Source: a virus. Taken from it: 20,960 nucleotides of DNA. The notes under the pieces are model-generated. The model worked only from the letters and a program-made list of their open reading frames with translations. It was not told the DNA's origin and did not search any database. Every line of letters begins with the position of its first letter. Position 1 is the first letter of the stretch. Position numbers and translations under genes: made by a program. Location of the stretch: positions 1-20,960 of the IMG/VR virus record IMGVR_UViG_3300030328_003259; one strand, given 5' to 3'. This document shows positions 1,888 through 15,069 of the stretch, in pieces.

Positions 1888-1929
1888 TTTTTGCCTCCTA
1901 AAATGTTTCCTAAGAAATAACCGATTTGA

Positions 1930-2300
1930 TTATTTCTATAAGAGACACTTTTAATGAACGGGTTCTGTTGTTTCCGTCTTGCCTGCAGTCTAGTTGGCTC
2001 TCTATTTTCTAACCGTTGGTTGGTGATTTGGTTTTACGCTTAAATCCTCACCGTTTTAAATATCGTCAAGAGTTTCCTAATGGTAGGTTCGAAGAATACT
2101 TATCTTATTAATTTTTGATTCTTCCTATTTCGGTTCTAATTGTTGCATCTCTTTTAGTCTTTTGTCGCCTACGGTGAGAGATTGAAGTCCTGCGCTTATT
2201 CAGTGATTCCTCTCAAAAGTCCATTTCATGGATTGGGGTTCCGGTTAGCTTCTGCCCGATTCCTAGCGCTATTTTTCTTGCCGGCTAGTCAACAGTATTA
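1930..2300 (-). ncRNA. Candidate structured leader or noncoding RNA with nested long-range helices
   Basis: Read on the - strand, this gene-free stretch has helices nested inside one another. One pairs 2255-2262 (GAATCGGG, with one bulged U) with 1956-1962 (CCCGTTC). Inside it, 2242-2248 pairs with 2009-2015 (CTAACCG/CGGTTAG). Inside that, 2171-2183 pairs with 2043-2054, giving 12 bp with a single bulge (CTCACCGT/ACGGTGAG plus AATC/GATT). The innermost part has a GAAGAAT/ATTCTTC hairpin and a small UCCAU-GAA-AUGGA hairpin lies at 2220-2232. The outer helix resembles the P4 helix of RNase P RNA, and ACAGAA lies directly before its 3' strand, but other conserved RNase P parts are not convincing. 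It starts just after a promoter candidate and ends before the 93-residue gene, so a regulatory leader is equally possible. Confidence 0.5.
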
Positions 2301-2305
2301 CTTTT

Positions 2306-2334
2306 AGTATACAACATTTTCAATACATATTGAA
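2306..2334 (-). promoter_or_regulatory. Leftward promoter candidate overlapping a palindrome
   Basis: On the - strand TTCAAT (2334-2329) is followed after 17 bases by TATACT (2311-2306), a good -10 and a weak -35. The -35 lies inside an inverted repeat, TTCAATA and TATTGAA separated by two bases (2319-2334), which could be a repressor or activator site. It would start transcription near 2299 and drive the leftward operon through the structured leader. The weak -35 together with a dyad suggests regulation, but this rests on consensus matching only. Confidence 0.4.
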
Positions 2335-3090
2335 TAAATAAATAAAAAATGTTCTAGGATGAAATTTACTAGGGTGAATATCCTTAGTGTTTATAGGCTC
2401 TAAGCTCTCTGTTTTAACAGGGTGAAATTAATTTAAAAAACTTCAAAATATTTCCTATTTTTTACCTCTAAAATGGTCCAAGACTTTTTGTTTGTGCATC
2501 TTTTCACAAGCTCTAATTTGTACTAGGTTTGCTCTAGTGGGTATGTTTGTACTCTGTTTGATTAGGTGAGGATGTTGCTCGGCTCTACTATTTCCGTCTA
2601 GGTTTCTACTTGTATTAACTTCCTAGGGTACTTGTTCAATTTACTTGTATAGTCCTATTCATACCATATGTAGGTGGGTGCATAATGTGTCCATATGTGG
2701 TGTAGGTGTGTGCAAAACAGTTTGGTAAATCTTGCCAAAAGCCAAGAAATAAAGGGGTAGGGGTTCAACCAAGCTCTTTCTTTCTTATTATGTGTATCCC
2801 TCTAGGATATGCTGTTAACTGTAGTTAAACGAGGTTATTTAACCTCTGTTTAAACAATGTGTACCTCTTACTGATTTAAGTGTATAGTGGTTCTAACCCT
2901 GTGTCATCCCTCCCAACCGATAACAAATCTGTTTATGACTTATTTTATATATTATGAAGTAATAGCCTTTTACGCTAGTTACCATGGGCCGGCAAGTCCA
3001 CTTGATTAATGTTTAGTCTGATAGATACTTCTTAATGCCGGGTGTCTATCATGCTTGTGTAATTTCACTATAACAGAAAAAATTTTAAAT
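2335..3090. other. Gene-free region with scattered hairpins and short repeats
   Basis: About 750 bases hold no frame with a plausible start and ribosome binding site on either strand. The clearest structures are a hairpin at 2825-2853 (TTAAAC/GTTTAA outside GAGGTT/AACCTC) and a 10-bp hairpin at 3019-3051 (TGATAGATAC with GTGTCTATCA) whose single U-G wobble exists only on the + strand. There is an imperfect direct repeat beginning CCATATGT at 2664-2682 and 2691-2714. GCCGGCAAG at 2988-2996 is the exact complement of 2277-2285. With the terminator at 3091-3142 this could be a large rightward RNA, but the base composition of 2400-2800 (T-rich on +) would also suit a leftward leader. Confidence 0.4.
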
Positions 3091-3142
3091 GGGGGGAATA
3101 GTTTTTTGATAAGGAGGCCAACCAAAAAAAATCCCCTTTTTT
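3091..3142 (+). terminator. Rightward intrinsic terminator candidate
   Basis: GGGGA at 3093-3097 pairs with TCCCC at 3132-3136, and the T-run at 3102-3107 pairs with the A-run at 3124-3131. Six T residues follow directly at 3137-3142. On the - strand there is no matching T-tract after the stem. If it works, it implies a rightward transcript in the gene-free stretch to its left. An AAGGAGG sequence in the loop has no start codon at usable distance. Confidence 0.5.
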
Positions 3143-3165
3143 AGTTTAATATAAATTATTTAGAG

Positions 3166-3171
3166 TATAAT
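3166..3171 (+). promoter_or_regulatory. Perfect TATAAT -10 element, weak -35
   Basis: TATAAT lies at 3166-3171 just after the terminator at 3091-3142. No convincing -35 hexamer is found 16-18 bases upstream, where the sequence is AT-rich. It would start an RNA near 3178, immediately before the hairpins of the 3178-3345 candidate. In an AT-rich genome such a match is not strong evidence alone. Confidence 0.3.
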
Positions 3172-3177
3172 GATATT

Positions 3178-3345
3178 GCGGTTTTTCATAACCCCTTAAT
3201 TATTCATAGTTAAGACTCATGAATTGCCCTTTCTATTGTGCGTTTGGTAAGGTAAGGAATCAGGCAACTGATAACTTACCAAACCAACTAAGTGATAGTT
3301 AACAGTATTAGTTATTAGCCAGGAAACTGGCTTTTAACTTTCCTC
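3178..3345 (+). ncRNA. Candidate rightward structured RNA A
   Basis: Three hairpins follow one another. The first pairs ATTCAT with ATGAAT around 3202-3224. The second has a 10-bp stem, GTTTGGTAAG (3242-3251) with CTTACCAAAC (3275-3284), enclosing a second helix ATCAG/CTGAT capped by a GCAA tetraloop (3259-3272). The third is AGCCAG-GAAA-CTGGCT (3317-3332) followed by TTTTAACTTT, which could end the transcript. GCAA and GAAA are GNRA loops only when read on the + strand, which supports a rightward RNA. No frame with a start is present. Function unknown. Confidence 0.45.
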
Positions 3346-3360
3346 AAAAAAAAATAATTT

Positions 3361-3389
3361 TTTACACACTTATAAACCGAGTATATGTA
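3361..3389 (+). promoter_or_regulatory. Rightward promoter candidate for RNA B
   Basis: TTTACA at 3361-3366 matches the -35 consensus at five of six positions, and TATGTA follows after 17 bases at 3384-3389. An A- then T-rich tract directly upstream could act as an UP element. It would start an RNA near 3396, at the first hairpin of candidate RNA B. The -10 is poor, so confidence is limited. Confidence 0.3.
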
Positions 3390-3394
3390 TATTG

Positions 3395-3539
3395 GAAGTG
3401 TTAGTACTTCTACAAAAGAACTGACACCATTTTCTGAAAAAAATAAGAAAATAGACAAAAGGAAGTGGCTGGAGATGGAAGTCTCAACTTATTAGAAATA
3501 ATAAGACCTACCGGCCACAACCTTAGTCAGGGCTTTTTT
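3395..3539 (+). ncRNA. Candidate rightward small RNA B with a three-way junction
   Basis: A hairpin GAAGT/ACTTC (3395-3410) comes first. Then AAAAG-AA-CTGAC (3414-3425) pairs with GTCAG-GG-CTTTT (3526-3537), closing the whole element. Inside, GTGGCTGG (3465-3472) pairs with CCGGCCAC (3511-3518) using one U-G wobble. It encloses two hairpins, GAGA/TCTC (3472-3485) and CTTATTA-GAAA-TAATAAG (3488-3505). The wobble and the GAAA tetraloop both favour the + strand. Six T residues at 3534-3539 would end the RNA and also meet the 3' end of the convergent gene at 3538-3753. No known RNA family is recognised: the hammerhead core is absent and there is no tRNA cloverleaf. Confidence 0.5.
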
Positions 3540-3753
3540 ACCTAATTATGTTTCCATGTCTATCAATACCGATATTGACTTCACGAAGTTTAATTCTTTT
3601 TTTCTGTGGGGTTCCATCTTTAGCTCTCCACTCAACTACGGTACGCAACTGTTTAGGATGTTGTTGCTTGTATTCTCTAATAGCTTCCTTCAATCCTTTA
3701 CCGGGAACAGTTATTGTTTCTTTGTTGTCGAATGTATATTCATATTTTTCCAT
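3538..3753 (-). CDS. Hypothetical basic protein, 71 residues
   Basis: The frame starts MEKYEYTFDNKETITV and ends IDRHGNIIR; it is rich in Lys and Arg in its second half (VEWRAKDGTPQKKRIKLREV) and reads like a compact folded protein rather than a chance frame. No family is recognised. There is no well-spaced ribosome binding site; AGGG lies immediately against the ATG. TATGAT, a -10-like hexamer, lies 11 bases before the start, so a very short leader or leaderless mRNA is possible. It is divergent from the 62-residue zinc-ribbon gene with only 22 bases between their starts, and it converges on RNA B. The longer + strand frame over the same bases looks like low-complexity hydrophobic shadow sequence. 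Confidence 0.55.
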   Translation of the reverse strand: MEKYEYTFDNKETITVPGKGLKEAIREYKQQHPKQLRTVVEWRAKDGTPQKKRIKLREVNIGIDRHGNIIR

Positions 3754-8248: not shown

Positions 8249-8714
8249 AAAATCTAACACTAAACAAATTGTAGGTGCTGGAGGAGACCCAACAGATGGT
8301 AGAGACCCAGCTTATCAAGATTTATATATCCCTAGAAAAGAAGGAGATGAAACAGGTTCTTCACAGGAAGTTAATGATTTAGCTTCAGGTTTGTCTGCTC
8401 CCGGAGGAGAAAATGCTGCTATTGCAGAAGCCGTCAAACAACAAAGTGGTAGGCCTATTGCTTTAGGTGAATCAACTAAATTTATTAATGAAGCTAATAC
8501 TACAGGAATAACTTTAGGTGCAGGTGCAGGACCTCCTAACGAAAAACCAAAAGTAAGTTTACATGATTGGGTTACTGGAGCTTTAGATAAATATGATTCT
8601 CAAATCCTTGCTGAACTTAGAGAAAATCTAGGAGATATTGCACCAGTTGTAGAAGATGCTAAACAAGAAATTCAATTAACAGAAGATAATAGATACCCGA
8701 AATATCATGCGTAG
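8241..8714 (+). CDS. Hypothetical protein, 157 residues, probably partly disordered
   Basis: It overlaps the previous gene by 8 bases and has TAGGAG as ribosome binding site. The N-terminal two thirds are rich in Gly, Ala, Pro and Ser (AGGDPTDGRDPAYQD, LSAPGGENAAIAEA, LGAGAGPPNEKP), typical of a flexible chain. The C-terminal part (SLHDWVTGALDKYDSQILAE and on) is helical. Its end overlaps the giant virion protein gene by 8 bases. I do not recognise it; a scaffold-like or ejection-related accessory role would fit the setting only by inference. Confidence 0.75.
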   Translation: MVRKSNTKQIVGAGGDPTDGRDPAYQDLYIPRKEGDETGSSQEVNDLASGLSAPGGENAAIAEAVKQQSGRPIALGESTKFINEANTTGITLGAGAGPPNEKPKVSLHDWVTGALDKYDSQILAELRENLGDIAPVVEDAKQEIQLTEDNRYPKYHA

Positions 8715-11700
8715 TTATGGAATTAGGTTCTCTGCATCAGAAATAAGTGAAGCCTACGCAGCAGAGACACTCAATAGAATAAATAGTTACAACCAAGGAC
8801 AGGCTCAAGCTACTCCTGAATTTGTTGAAGGATTCCAAGGCATGATGAATGCATATCCAAATATGAATATGGAGGTTGCTGCTATAGCTACATTAGAAAA
8901 TATAAGTCCTGAAGATGAACTAGCTTTTCAGTTAGCTAACTCAATGCATGATTTAGCCGTAAAGAAGAATACTGAGAATATAGTTACAAATGTAGGTTGG
9001 GGAAAAAGAAGTTTTCAAATGGGTATGTTATGGCTTGATTCTATGTTTCAACCAGTATCAAGAGGTTTTAAATCTGCAGTATCTGCAGCACAAGAAACAG
9101 GAGCATCAGTTCCTGGAACAGTTGGTGCTGCTACATTAGGAGGTTTAGCAAGTTGGTTTCATCCTGGTCGTTCAACACAAAATTATATTGACTCAATGGT
9201 AGGTAGAAAAACAGGAAGAGCCTTTGAACAGAAAAGAGAGGCATACGGAGATACAGAATTTAGATTAGCTTTAGAAGAATCAAGAAAAGGTAAGCCTCTT
9301 AACTTAGGTGCAGGATTTTTACCTAAGTCGCTTGCTTTAACAGAGACACAAACTTATCTTGATGAGATTCGTTCAGGTAGTGACCAAAGAACATCTTATA
9401 GAAAAGCAGCAGAGAAATACGGTGTTCCTATTACTAAACAATTTGAACAAAAAGAAAATCAATTCAAATATAAAACTAATAAAGGAGAAGCAATAGATAT
9501 ATCTCCAGGAAGAATTGTTGCTGCACAAATGTTAGAACCTGGAACAGGAGGATATAGTGTTGTTTCCGGAATTATTGATGGAGTTTTCAGATTAGCTGCA
9601 GACCCTATGAACTTAGGGTTAATGTATGGAGCTGGTGTAAAAACTGCAATGAGAACATTAGTTCAATCTAATAGAAGAGCATTAACAGCAGGAGGTAAAA
9701 TGACTGCTTTGTTAAAAGGTTTTATGCCGGGAAAAACTGGTAAATATAATCGTGCTTTATATTATGGAAGAACTGTTGATGATGTAAGAGCTACTGGATG
9801 GGGAACAAAATTTGGTGAAGCTATTGCTGCTTTAAAAGGAGATGAGGGATTAGCTTTTCTTAATGATATAGCTGAATTTAGAAATATACCTGCTTCTGTT
9901 AAAAGAGTATTAATTGAACTAGACAACCCTACTGATGTATGGAATGTATTAGATGTAGTTGCTAAAGGTGGAAATTTAACAATGAAAGAATTTGATAATA
10001 TGTTTACCTTAATGAAAAACTCTGTAAAAGGAAGACCTGACGGAAAACAATTAGTAGTTGAGTTAGACAAAATGAGAGAGTTAAGTATGAATAATGTTAA
10101 CTTCGGTTTGAATGCAATACCAGCAAAACCTACAACAACAGGAGAGTTTTTTAATTTTGTGGCTGGCGTAGTATCAAAAGGACTTGGAGGAGGACCTATA
10201 GATTTTGCTCCACTAAGAAAATTTGTTGGAATGTTTGCAGTAGAAGGTAGACCAGTTAAAAGACTATTAGGCGTAGGCGCACAATTAAAACACTCATTAC
10301 CAAAACATATTGGTAGAGCTTTAAGCCTTAGACCTGAAACAACAATGATGATACTACAGCTTGATGCAGCAGCAAGAAATGCTGATGATATGTTGAAGTT
10401 GTCATTTGCAAGTCCAAAAGCTAGAGGAGCGTATCAAAGAGAAATTTTATCAGCAACAACTCAAAAAGAACTAAATGAGATTACAAATAGAATAAACCAA
10501 GTAATTGCTAAAAATGTAGGAAATCAAAATCCAAAGTTACAATTTGATGTTGAAGATTTAATAGCACAACAAGATGCATTTAACGCAGAGCTAGAAGAAT
10601 TGAGACAATTTTTTTCATCTACTACTGGAGGTTCTCTAGCTTTTAATGGTGTTAAAACAAAAATTCGTTATGAAAAATTAATTAAAGATTTAGAAGGTTA
10701 CATGAAATCAGTAGGTATAGAAGTTACTGAAGAGAGTGTTAAGCAAACTGTTATAGAAGCTGTACCTTCTTTGCACTTATTATCACAAGCTGCTGACAAT
10801 TTTTCTGCACAACTCTTAGACCCTAAAGATATAGTTAGAGCTACAAAAAAACATCAAAGTTTAATTGGACCTGAAGATTCTCTTTTAAGGGAATGGGTTA
10901 AAAAACCTAAAGAATTTTTAACAGGAGAATGGGGAGAAGCATTTGCAATACCAAGGAGAGCATTACAGCAAAATGCAAAATCAAATAGAATACAGTTAAA
11001 ACCAAAAGGACCAATAGATAACTTTCTTGATGAATTTCAGAATAGAGTATTAAAACCTGCTTGGATGCTGAGACTAGCTTTAATGTTAAGAATTGCACCT
11101 GAAGAAGGAGTAAGGGCTGCATTCGGTGGAAAAACTAACTTTATAACTACACCATTTAGGAGAGCAGCTTTAAATTCAAATAAACAACTTGGTTTTCTTG
11201 GTCCTGAAGTTAGAGATGCTGAGGTATTCCAGGCATGGAACAATTTAGGTGAACTTATCTTATCAACAAGAATGTCACCTGATGATGTGAAGTTCTTAAA
11301 AAACATGATAGATGTTGATGATTTAGATTCTTTTAAAGCAGTAGATTTTGAGAAGGCCCAACGAATACTCAAACATTCTATGCTTGAAACAAATGTTGCA
11401 GGTGTTGTATCTGAAGAGGTTATTGGTGCTGCTATTAAAGATGTTGATTTAAGAGACATGAGATTTATGGAGCTAACTGAACAGACTTTCAATATAAAAA
11501 GTAAACCAATAAATGCTAAAGCAAAAGGAAGTATCCAAGGTTATGACGAAAAAACTTATGATTCTATGGGAGAAGCACTTATTCATGGCGATGGATTCAC
11601 AACAGATTTAGATGCTGCTAGGTATGTAGATTTAAAAACAAGAAAACTTTCAGATGCAGATGCTTTCGTTTCACCTTATAAAGAAAAAGAATATACTTTT

Positions 11701-14700
11701 GGAAAATTAGCAGATGTTGAAGTTAAAGCTGCTGAACTTGGAATAACTCCTGCAGCTTATATAGATTCACAAATAGACAATATTTTTATGGATGATGAAA
11801 CTATAAAACTTTTACAAAAAGACAACCATGTATTAGGAAGTTACATGGATGAGGAAGGTAACCTTTTGATAGATGTTTCTATAGGATTAAAAGGTGATAA
11901 TGCAATTAGCAATGCAGTACACATGGGAGCTAATGCTTTCCAAGAATCTGTCTTTATTGCTAATAGAGCTTTAGCTGAAGCAAGTGGTTTTGGACATTTA
12001 GTAGATGAAGGAGGATTTCTAACTGTTTATAAATCAGTAGAAGGTAGAGCTGCTAAAGATATAAATATTGATTCTATTCTTTCTCAAGATGCTTTAGAAG
12101 CACTGTATAAATCTAATTTTGATGCTTTAAGATTATCTGTTGATGAAGTAAAAGGTGCTGCTAAAGGAATGCCCGGAGGAGGATTGTTTACTGCAGATGA
12201 AGCCTATCAAGCATCTATGGGTGAACAAGCTGTTGTTGGAGGATTCTTAGGTGGAAAAAAAGATGTAGCTGAAAATTCTTACATTATGGTTGACAAGTAT
12301 CTGCAGAATGGAGAAATCAATCCTAGATATTGGGAAGGTTTTTGGGAAGAAATGAGCTTACTAGCTTCTGACCCTAATGTTATAAAGTTAGCAAATATTG
12401 GTATTGATGAAATGATGGTTTATTTAAGAACTAATAAGATAGGAAAGAGAAACCTTGAAGAACTTGTTGCAAGAAGTTTTCATCCTGAAGATAAATTATA
12501 TTTAACTGATGATGATGCCTTAAGAGAGTTATTAGAATCTTATAACTATAGAATTGCAAAACTTACAGGAAATCCAACTGCTAAAATACTAGACCCAGTT
12601 ACAGGAAAAGAGTTGTCTGCTGAAGCAGCAGGAAGAGTAACTTTTAAAAATGGTAAAAAAATATATCCAAAGTTTGTAGCAGACATGAATGTAAGAACAG
12701 ATACTAAAACATTTCAGTTTATTAAAAATGGTGGTGTTATAGAAGGTAGAGATTGGATTAGATACCAAGGACACATACAGACAGTAAAGAGTTTTAAAGA
12801 TAAAGGAACAGCAAATGAAAATTTCTTTAAGCAGTTTATTAAAGTATTTAGAAAAGAAATTGACGAACAGAATGTAGGTCCTATGAGACTTCCAAGAAGG
12901 TTTGACCTTAAAAACAGAGTATCCGAAGCAGGAACTATTATTTCGGGTAAAGAAATAAAAGCTGCAGGTTTCATGGAGGCAGCTGAAACAGATGCTTGGT
13001 TTGGCATAAGCAATAACTTACTTGAAAAAGGTTATGGATTATTAATATCAAAACCATCTAACTGGTTAAATAGAGACCCATTATTTAGATATGCTTTTTA
13101 TGACAATGCCAAAGATGTTCTTAGATTTATGGATGAACCAACTAAGAGAAAGTTTATACAAGAATCAGAAGTGTGGATGGATGGAGACAAGATGTGGGAT
13201 GAGTTAGTACAGATTGCTAAAGAACCATCATTAGAGAATACAGTCACAAGTTTAGAACAAGCTAATAAGCTATTGAAATCTGCAGCTATGAATGAAGTTT
13301 TATCTTTGTTTTATTCAACATCAAAAAGACATGTTGCTTCAGATTTGTTTTCTAAATATATTCCATTCCCTGAAATATGGGCAGAGGTTGCAACAACTTG
13401 GGGTAAATTGTTAGTTGATAATCCACAGAAATTCAACAGGGCAAGAATTGCTATAGACAATGGAACAGAAGCCAAACCATGGGATGATGAAAATGGTTTC
13501 TTAAGCGTAGACCCTAAGACAGGGAAATTAATGTTTAATTACATGGATGTCTTTAATGTATTAAGTTTAGGAACTATTCCTTTAATATCAAAACTTATGA
13601 ACGATTATGATGTCGTAGATAATTTACCTGACATTATTAAAGCTCCATATCAAACAATAATGCTTGGTGAAGATTTAAGAGATGCTGGAGTTGAAGGAGA
13701 TTTTGAGGCTTCAAATGTTAGAGCTACTATGCCAGCTTATGCTGCAGGACTTAACTTAGTAGCACAGAATGGTTTTGCTCCAGGATTTGGACCTGTTGTT
13801 ACAATACCAATGAGAAGAATATTAAATGCTATGGGTTCTCCTAAGTGGTTAAGAAGATTTGTTCTAGGTGATTTTGAAAACTCAGGTACAGCATTTGACC
13901 AAATGCCAGCTTATGCAAAGAAATTTTTAGCTATTGGAGGAGAAGGCTCTTCTAATGAACAAGTTCAATCAATGTTTGGAGCAACACAAATGGATTTATA
14001 TACAGCTTATGTTCTTGCAGGATTAGTTGACCAGGAAGACCCTTTATCAGTACAACATTGGTTAGAGGAATCTATGAAACAAGCTAGATTTGTTTATGCA
14101 TTTAGAGGTATGGCACAGTTTTCTTTACCAACAGCTATTCAACCAAGAATAGAAATAGAAGATAAAAATGGTACTTGGTGGGCTACACAAACTTTAGTTA
14201 ACAAGTATGGAGAATTACTAATTAGAAATGGATATGACCACTTTCAAACACAACAAGATTTTATAGAGAAGTTTGGAATAAACCCAATGCCTTTGAAACA
14301 GCCTGGAGAATATAAAGTAGGTAAAAAACCTATCAAAGAAACTTCATATTTTTATTGGTATCAATCTGAGAATAAGAAGTTATTAGATGCATTACCTAAT
14401 ACAGCTTATTATATATTCCCGGATAGAGTCGAAGATGAGTTATATTATCCAGCTTATTATGAAATGACAACAGTTGATTTATCTCCTGAACAAGAAGCAG
14501 ATTTTATGAGACATAGCCAAGCAATCTTTGAATATGAAAAAGGAAAACAAGACATAAGAGACGATGAAGCGATAGGTGATGAGGAAAAACTAAGAAGGTT
14601 ATCTACATTGAAGTCAGAAATTGAAGATGATTATGGTGGTATGGATTTATTTAACTTTCAAGGAAAGCCTCAAAGTGTAAGTATTAAAACAACTATGGCT

Positions 14701-15069
14701 GAATTAGCAAGATGGAAAGATTATCCTCAAATGAAAAATAGTCCTGAATGGGAATATGTAGAAAAGTATCTAGGTTGGAGAGATGCTTTATTAGATGTAC
14801 TTACTAATGGTGGATATTTTTCTTACGGTGATTTTGAATGGGAATATGAGGGTAATACTTACACTGAGCTTTATGTTCCTCCTAATGATAAATATAAAGC
14901 AAGACTTTTAACAGGAACAAGTGATTATAAGAACCAAGCAAGGATAATAATGCAAAAAATATGGTTGGATATTATTAACGAATCAAAAGGTACAAACTTC
15001 CAACAACTAGCGAATGAAGTGCTATTCTTTGAGTTAAGCCCTAACAATGGTCAGAACAGTAAGGATTAA
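8707..15069 (+). CDS. Giant virion protein, 2120 residues, probable internal or ejection protein
   Basis: One uninterrupted frame covers 6.4 kb, about 30 percent of the window. It starts MRSYGIRFSASEISEAYAAE without a clear ribosome binding site, so it probably relies on coupling to the gene it overlaps by 8 bases. Glycine-rich hydrophobic patches lie near residues 132-157 (GASVPGTVGAATLGG), 280-312 (YSVVSGIIDGVFRLAADP) and 484-497 (FVAGVVSKGLGGG), which might insert in membranes. Much of the rest looks helical and charged. A conserved-looking aromatic stretch (FPEIWAEVATTWGKLL) is near 1554-1570 and the C terminus is rich in Tyr, Trp and acidic residues. The place between portal and scaffold, with a lysozyme-fold gene nearby, fits the huge internal virion proteins of podovirus-like phages that are injected with DNA. 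A tail protein is the alternative. I see no RNA polymerase motifs of the N4 virion enzyme. Confidence 0.7.
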   Translation: MRSYGIRFSASEISEAYAAETLNRINSYNQGQAQATPEFVEGFQGMMNAYPNMNMEVAAIATLENISPEDELAFQLANSMHDLAVKKNTENIVTNVGWGKRSFQMGMLWLDSMFQPVSRGFKSAVSAAQETGASVPGTVGAATLGGLASWFHPGRSTQNYIDSMVGRKTGRAFEQKREAYGDTEFRLALEESRKGKPLNLGAGFLPKSLALTETQTYLDEIRSGSDQRTSYRKAAEKYGVPITKQFEQKENQFKYKTNKGEAIDISPGRIVAAQMLEPGTGGYSVVSGIIDGVFRLAADPMNLGLMYGAGVKTAMRTLVQSNRRALTAGGKMTALLKGFMPGKTGKYNRALYYGRTVDDVRATGWGTKFGEAIAALKGDEGLAFLNDIAEFRNIPASVKRVLIELDNPTDVWNVLDVVAKGGNLTMKEFDNMFTLMKNSVKGRPDGKQLVVELDKMRELSMNNVNFGLNAIPAKPTTTGEFFNFVAGVVSKGLGGGPIDFAPLRKFVGMFAVEGRPVKRLLGVGAQLKHSLPKHIGRALSLRPETTMMILQLDAAARNADDMLKLSFASPKARGAYQREILSATTQKELNEITNRINQVIAKNVGNQNPKLQFDVEDLIAQQDAFNAELEELRQFFSSTTGGSLAFNGVKTKIRYEKLIKDLEGYMKSVGIEVTEESVKQTVIEAVPSLHLLSQAADNFSAQLLDPKDIVRATKKHQSLIGPEDSLLREWVKKPKEFLTGEWGEAFAIPRRALQQNAKSNRIQLKPKGPIDNFLDEFQNRVLKPAWMLRLALMLRIAPEEGVRAAFGGKTNFITTPFRRAALNSNKQLGFLGPEVRDAEVFQAWNNLGELILSTRMSPDDVKFLKNMIDVDDLDSFKAVDFEKAQRILKHSMLETNVAGVVSEEVIGAAIKDVDLRDMRFMELTEQTFNIKSKPINAKAKGSIQGYDEKTYDSMGEALIHGDGFTTDLDAARYVDLKTRKLSDADAFVSPYKEKEYTFGKLADVEVKAAELGITPAAYIDSQIDNIFMDDETIKLLQKDNHVLGSYMDEEGNLLIDVSIGLKGDNAISNAVHMGANAFQESVFIANRALAEASGFGHLVDEGGFLTVYKSVEGRAAKDINIDSILSQDALEALYKSNFDALRLSVDEVKGAAKGMPGGGLFTADEAYQASMGEQAVVGGFLGGKKDVAENSYIMVDKYLQNGEINPRYWEGFWEEMSLLASDPNVIKLANIGIDEMMVYLRTNKIGKRNLEELVARSFHPEDKLYLTDDDALRELLESYNYRIAKLTGNPTAKILDPVTGKELSAEAAGRVTFKNGKKIYPKFVADMNVRTDTKTFQFIKNGGVIEGRDWIRYQGHIQTVKSFKDKGTANENFFKQFIKVFRKEIDEQNVGPMRLPRRFDLKNRVSEAGTIISGKEIKAAGFMEAAETDAWFGISNNLLEKGYGLLISKPSNWLNRDPLFRYAFYDNAKDVLRFMDEPTKRKFIQESEVWMDGDKMWDELVQIAKEPSLENTVTSLEQANKLLKSAAMNEVLSLFYSTSKRHVASDLFSKYIPFPEIWAEVATTWGKLLVDNPQKFNRARIAIDNGTEAKPWDDENGFLSVDPKTGKLMFNYMDVFNVLSLGTIPLISKLMNDYDVVDNLPDIIKAPYQTIMLGEDLRDAGVEGDFEASNVRATMPAYAAGLNLVAQNGFAPGFGPVVTIPMRRILNAMGSPKWLRRFVLGDFENSGTAFDQMPAYAKKFLAIGGEGSSNEQVQSMFGATQMDLYTAYVLAGLVDQEDPLSVQHWLEESMKQARFVYAFRGMAQFSLPTAIQPRIEIEDKNGTWWATQTLVNKYGELLIRNGYDHFQTQQDFIEKFGINPMPLKQPGEYKVGKKPIKETSYFYWYQSENKKLLDALPNTAYYIFPDRVEDELYYPAYYEMTTVDLSPEQEADFMRHSQAIFEYEKGKQDIRDDEAIGDEEKLRRLSTLKSEIEDDYGGMDLFNFQGKPQSVSIKTTMAELARWKDYPQMKNSPEWEYVEKYLGWRDALLDVLTNGGYFSYGDFEWEYEGNTYTELYVPPNDKYKARLLTGTSDYKNQARIIMQKIWLDIINESKGTNFQQLANEVLFFELSPNNGQNSKD

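Follow-up and report, generated by a model that had tools for sequence, protein, structure and literature searches.

We analysed a virus sequence record of 20,960 bases, called the window below, in which minus-strand genes occupy the part left of 1888 and plus-strand genes follow from 3961 on, the latter encoding an SNase-like protein, a large terminase (TerL, of phrog_38) and a portal. The region 1888-3537, which makes up 7.9% of the window, holds no supportable reading frame, its longest ORFs being 40-47 aa, and so is gene-free as the original prediction had it. That prediction also placed the region between divergent operons, and here the arrangement is not strictly divergent because the neighbouring gene on the right (3538-3753) is on the minus strand. 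This gene of 71 aa, between the RNA described below and the late operon, has no match in the nearest relative, L001.

No tRNA gene was found in the window or in the 24 related loci scanned, several of which are only partial genomes, and a scan of the window proteins encoded between the RNA and TerL revealed no recognisable small terminase. On the early side, 819-1574 encodes on the minus strand a conserved early protein that weakly matches SprT-like metalloproteases; it was found in 54 RNA-bearing loci, each time on the minus strand. Three stretches at 90-147, 243-335 and 722-824 all have their matches at the same short sites in relatives (L069 1669-1767 is one example) and seem to represent a short repeated element between early genes. 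On the late side, 8707-15069 encodes a very large late protein of 2120 aa for which the bacterial genomes searched yielded no relative. The sign change of the GC skew coincides with the change of coding strand; gene direction alone explains it, so the skew is no evidence for a replication origin, and the proposal that the gap might contain one found no evidence.

Several short elements lie in the gap on either side of the RNA. Positions 1888-2434 form the leader region of the leftward early genes (minus strand), where relatives have a TTGACA-N17-TATATT promoter; the window itself has no good match to this early promoter at 1888-2434. On the other side, a hairpin read directly from the sequence at 3091-3142 (GGGGGGAAT..AATCCCCTTTTTT) adjoins the RNA promoter and presents in its loop AAGGAGG, a strong ribosome-binding sequence, without a start codon. 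Its orientation differs between clades, with equivalents in L007 (1620-1690), L145 and L072; in the window it ends in T6 on the plus strand, and the T-run after the hairpin is missing in other clades. Towards the late genes follow two plus-strand hairpins, one of 10 bp at 3242-3285 with an inner CAG-GCAA-CTG, similar to GCAA hairpins in L005, L033 and L086, and a terminator-like one at 3317-3332 with a GAAA loop (AGCCAG-GAAA-CTGGCT) and a TTT tail. A terminator and hairpins with GNRA loops had both been predicted in the gap and are recovered in these two elements; three terminator-like sites were found against 1.3 expected. As a control region the gap qualifies in part, since it contains the promoter of the RNA and the late-side hairpins as well as, in relatives, an early promoter, whereas other parts encode RNA. 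The remainder of 1888-3537 outside the RNA is leader and promoter DNA.

A conserved domain beside the terminase gene

A terminase search gave 73 viral loci, which were aligned upstream of the late genes and have in common a conserved block corresponding to about 2868-3085 of the window. With further loci added by pattern scans, a domain of about 180 nt (window 2896-3075) was found in at least 171 fetched viral loci, a number that includes overlapping pieces and near-duplicates of the same contigs and comes down to 65 distinct domains at 97%. One locus, L117, matched the DNA pattern and not the covariance model, and was left out of the set. TerL has the same orientation and lies 0.3-2.1 kb from the domain in 150 of the 150 loci where it is in reach, and is never missing where the locus extends over more than 2.5 kb on the TerL side. 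Its identity falls to 54% in L087/L114, the most diverged copies examined closely, and 11 of 12 records of about 40 kb contain one copy of the domain. The constant orientation of TerL, its identity down to 54% and the one copy per record together point to vertical and syntenic inheritance of the domain. The domain was found neither in isolate phages by DNA search nor in the bacterial genomes searched; judging from the loci collected, the RNA is widespread in uncultured phages, beside a DNA-packaging gene.

On the minus strand, 65 homologues define a conserved 5′ RNA domain (type A, 2896-3060) with five predicted covarying helices. Hairpin H5 (3020-3050) has 9 bp between arms 3020-3028 and 3042-3050 and shows 33 double compensatory events, while hairpin H3 (2985-3000) has 3 bp between arms 2985-2987 and 2998-3000, with pairs that vary between groups (CCG/CGG in the L045/L058/L122 group, UGG/CCA in the majority). 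The H3 loop (2989-2994) and the H5 loop (3036-3041) would form a 6-bp kissing helix with 17 double events and variants CCGGCA/UGCCGG, CAGGCA/UGCCUG, CAGACU/AGUCUG and CCUGCU/AGCAGG; every cell of this helix is paired among 26 distinct sequences, and only two are broken among the 65 non-redundant ones. Hairpin H2 (2963-2977, arms 2963-2966 and 2974-2977) has 18 double events and no broken pair, and none is broken in the long-range helix H1 (2904-2907 with 2954-2957; variants UCAU/AUGA, CUAC/GUAG and CCAC/GUGG). H1, H2 and the kissing helix were proposed by RNAalifold unprompted.

For the domain we used a model-based alignment (A2), because a MAFFT alignment of the minus strand misplaced H5 between clades; the covariance model was home-made, with rough E-values, and built on the plus strand. 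Over the five helices, 97.3% of cells are paired in 30 aligned sequences read on the plus strand. The same alignment has 109 double-change cells where shuffles have 30.9, and its covariation score is 0.442, compared with 0.157 when shuffled and at most 0.118 when partners were slid. A tree yielded 74 double compensatory events and 8 changes from Watson-Crick to pairs that are neither G.U nor A.C, both counted by parsimony on a short alignment. Since double compensatory changes far outnumber disruptive ones and neither shuffles nor slides ever reach the observed covariation, selection on the 5′ domain appears to act at the RNA level. An RNA in the gap, as originally predicted, thus finds covariation for about 2896-3060 only. 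Homologues might instead have kept a reading frame, and in the 180-nt domain any one frame is open in at most 4 of the 65. The impression from single-sequence folding that the region is packed with structure did not hold up: on both strands the domain is predicted to fold no more stably than its dinucleotide shuffles (mean z +0.38 and +0.14).

A different 5′ sequence, with the downstream block described below kept, is found in L007 (1405-1602), L073/L123 (L073 4371-4562), L211 (4518-4715), L191/L136/L217 (L191 8698-8890), L173 (4765-4955) and L124 (1015-1204). We call this domain type B, and the terminase is its neighbour in all loci reaching that far (L124 is too short). In six aligned copies, two of them near-identical, three helices have 98.8% of cells paired and a covariation of 0.810 against 0.261 in shuffles, values obtained from few sequences and with helices picked from the same alignment used to score them. 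These few sequences suggest that one locus may hold either of two unrelated 5′ folds.

Strand, promoter and extent of the proposed RNA

An A.C pair becomes G.U when the opposite strand is read, and of the two RNA tolerates only G.U well. Read on the plus strand, the imperfect pairs of the 65 sequences comprise 87 A.C and 5 G.U, and the tree events comprise 23 into A.C and 2 into G.U, with nearly all of this asymmetry within H5. The plus-strand model favours G.U on the plus strand, so that its bias works against the A.C excess. Furthermore, promoter scoring in 70 loci revealed an extended -10 element (TGTTATAGT) at 3067-3075 on the minus strand, upstream of the domain start ACAARCA, with a best score of 5.53 against 3.71 at background positions. 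Its consensus on the minus strand is TGnTATARt and its spacing to ACAARCA is mostly 6 nt. From the A.C excess on the plus strand and this element at the domain edge, we infer that the RNA is on the minus strand and starts near 3060, the 5′ end being well supported. Our initial reading of a plus-strand RNA with the domain as its 3′ end was overturned by the A.C excess.

Placing the 3′ end at a U-rich tract gives a proposed noncoding RNA of about 0.6 kb at 2435-3060 on the minus strand. On this strand, T-runs between about +503 and +660 are common to most close relatives, and several of these have a sigma-70 promoter (TTGACA-N16/17-TATAxT) after the T-runs, at about +600-655; terminator-like hairpins are present in L161 at +574 and in L171 at +552. 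Near the proposed 3′ end the window has a T6 run (minus, 2440-2435) and nothing more, a T7 run and a strong second promoter both being absent, and intrinsic terminators on the minus strand form no consistent set across loci, being present in few of them only. The gene next to the RNA in L161 is directed toward it, and hence no same-strand gene directly follows the RNA; plus-strand genes are immediately downstream, and minus-strand early genes come only about 1.3 kb beyond these. Leftward of the RNA, same-strand genes come next in the window and in many relatives. The U-tracts followed by a second promoter in close relatives and the gene arrangement of L161 suggest an RNA of about 0.55-0.63 kb (window about 3060-2435) that is separate from the early operon. 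A large noncoding RNA had been predicted, and a structured RNA is indeed present, with a domain of about 180 nt and a probable minus-strand transcript of about 0.6 kb, not 1.65 kb.

Within the RNA, about 260-330 nt from its start, lies a conserved downstream block (2761-2818, minus; GGGTTnAA-N38-ATATGCTGTTAA in plus reading) that is common to relatives with either 5′ domain, with conserved sequence and nearly constant spacing. A scan for its pattern returned at least 119 contigs, several of the matches being chance ones in unrelated sequence. Outside the 180-nt domain no convincing helix came from a symmetric helix scan or from RNAalifold applied to the middle block; this block folds better when read as plus strand and with G.U allowed, but with many broken cells.

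Interpretation and alternative explanations

Collectively, these results suggest that the gap probably holds a stand-alone noncoding RNA gene on the minus strand whose product acts as a folded RNA. Transcription would begin at the conserved minus promoter near 3060, end near 2435 and be separate from that of the early genes, with the folded RNA and not a message as the working form. The RNA would most likely act in trans, its 5′ domain being a compact kissing-loop fold that may bind a putative phage or host partner, and the kissing could take place within one molecule or between molecules. In a bolder version, to which we give little credence, phage RNAs of a new class, found throughout one uncultured phage group and always next to the terminase, would share a common body carrying one or the other of two interchangeable 5′ folds, and would assemble via kissing loops for packaging or host takeover.

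The main rival, which we consider rather unlikely, is a cis-acting role in which the 5′ domain would be the leader of the leftward early transcript and, like HK022 put, alter pausing or termination downstream. The domain begins within about 10 nt of the transcription start, much as putL closely follows PL (PMC9378689), its next leftward neighbours are same-strand genes both in the window and in many relatives, and two unrelated 5′ domains in one slot would be expected for exchangeable regulators. Evidence against such a leader comes from L161, where plus-strand genes intervene before the minus-strand early genes, and from the several relatives that have their own TTGACA/TATATT early promoter after the U-tracts, and a put-like role would not need the conserved block at about +260 to +330. 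Because of the missing same-strand gene downstream in L161, the separate early promoters and this conserved block, we favour the stand-alone noncoding RNA over an antitermination leader of the put type.

A structured plus-strand RNA acting as upstream leader of the late operon would be consistent with the T6 that ends the hairpin at 3091-3142 and with the better plus-strand folding of the middle block, but it is very improbable given 87 A.C against 5 G.U in the covarying helices on that strand, a conserved minus promoter exactly at the domain edge and the missing T-run in other clades. We give marginally less weight still to a packaging RNA that, like phi29 pRNA, would form rings via kissing loops and serve the terminase: its fixed place beside TerL, two hairpins with complementary loops and the lack of a recognised small terminase between RNA and TerL fit this idea, whereas the phage pRNA family gave no Rfam match, the terminase is a phrog_38 large terminase and adjacency to TerL may just mark the early/late boundary. 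Just as improbable is an element acting at the DNA level, be it a replication origin, a packaging site or control DNA, that is conserved for reasons other than RNA. The middle block conserved without demonstrated structure, the divergent control region and the GC-skew change could be read in its favour, but a G.U-type asymmetry with strict compensatory change is possible only in a single strand that tolerates wobble pairs, hence in RNA, and gene direction explains the skew.

Large structured phage RNAs are few and their functions mysterious, so that a new example matters. The stand-alone RNA proposed here has a defined promoter and a clear domain accessible to mutational tests, and the two apparently exchangeable 5′ domains at one locus amount to a natural experiment. 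Given the covariance model and the strand assignment, infection or metatranscriptome data can be searched for the RNA directly.

Comparison with known RNAs

The structured RNA is absent from Rfam 15, and catalogued families do not match it. No family, GOLLD and ROOL included, matched the window at gathering score; at relaxed E-values the region and 11 relatives gave weak, implausible hits only. The phage pRNA family (phi29 pRNA) had no match, and there was no support for a group I intron or tRNA/tmRNA. Some published motifs, such as Ocean-VI (PMC2864571), have no Rfam entry and hence fall outside this comparison.

The RNA, which the original prediction had compared in size with GOLLD and ROOL, is neither of them by any test run, with no Rfam 15 match at the thresholds used. 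Like them, it would be a large phage noncoding RNA with kissing loops, whereas its conserved part is at the 5′ end and its covarying domain is just about 180 nt. GOLLD consists of one universally conserved and one variable part (PMC12286853), a division to which the present RNA can be likened by analogy only. Furthermore, GOLLD is often near tRNA genes, in contrast to the loci scanned here.

With phi29 pRNA it has in common the complementary loops of a noncoding phage RNA; unlike pRNA, type A shows no closing helix around the whole domain, and its neighbour is a phrog_38 large terminase and not a phi29-type packaging ATPase. Large terminases of the phrog_38 kind are not known to use RNA.

GOLLD forms an RNA-only oligomeric cage and HK022 put makes RNA polymerase read through terminators. 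Put is about 70 nt long with two stem-loops, and putL lies just downstream of the early promoter PL (PMC9378689). The present domain differs from it in its length of about 180 nt, its kissing loops, the extra conserved block and the lack of a relative in the phage records searched; it resembles put in being a structured stem-loop element directly after a promoter, a position that fits.
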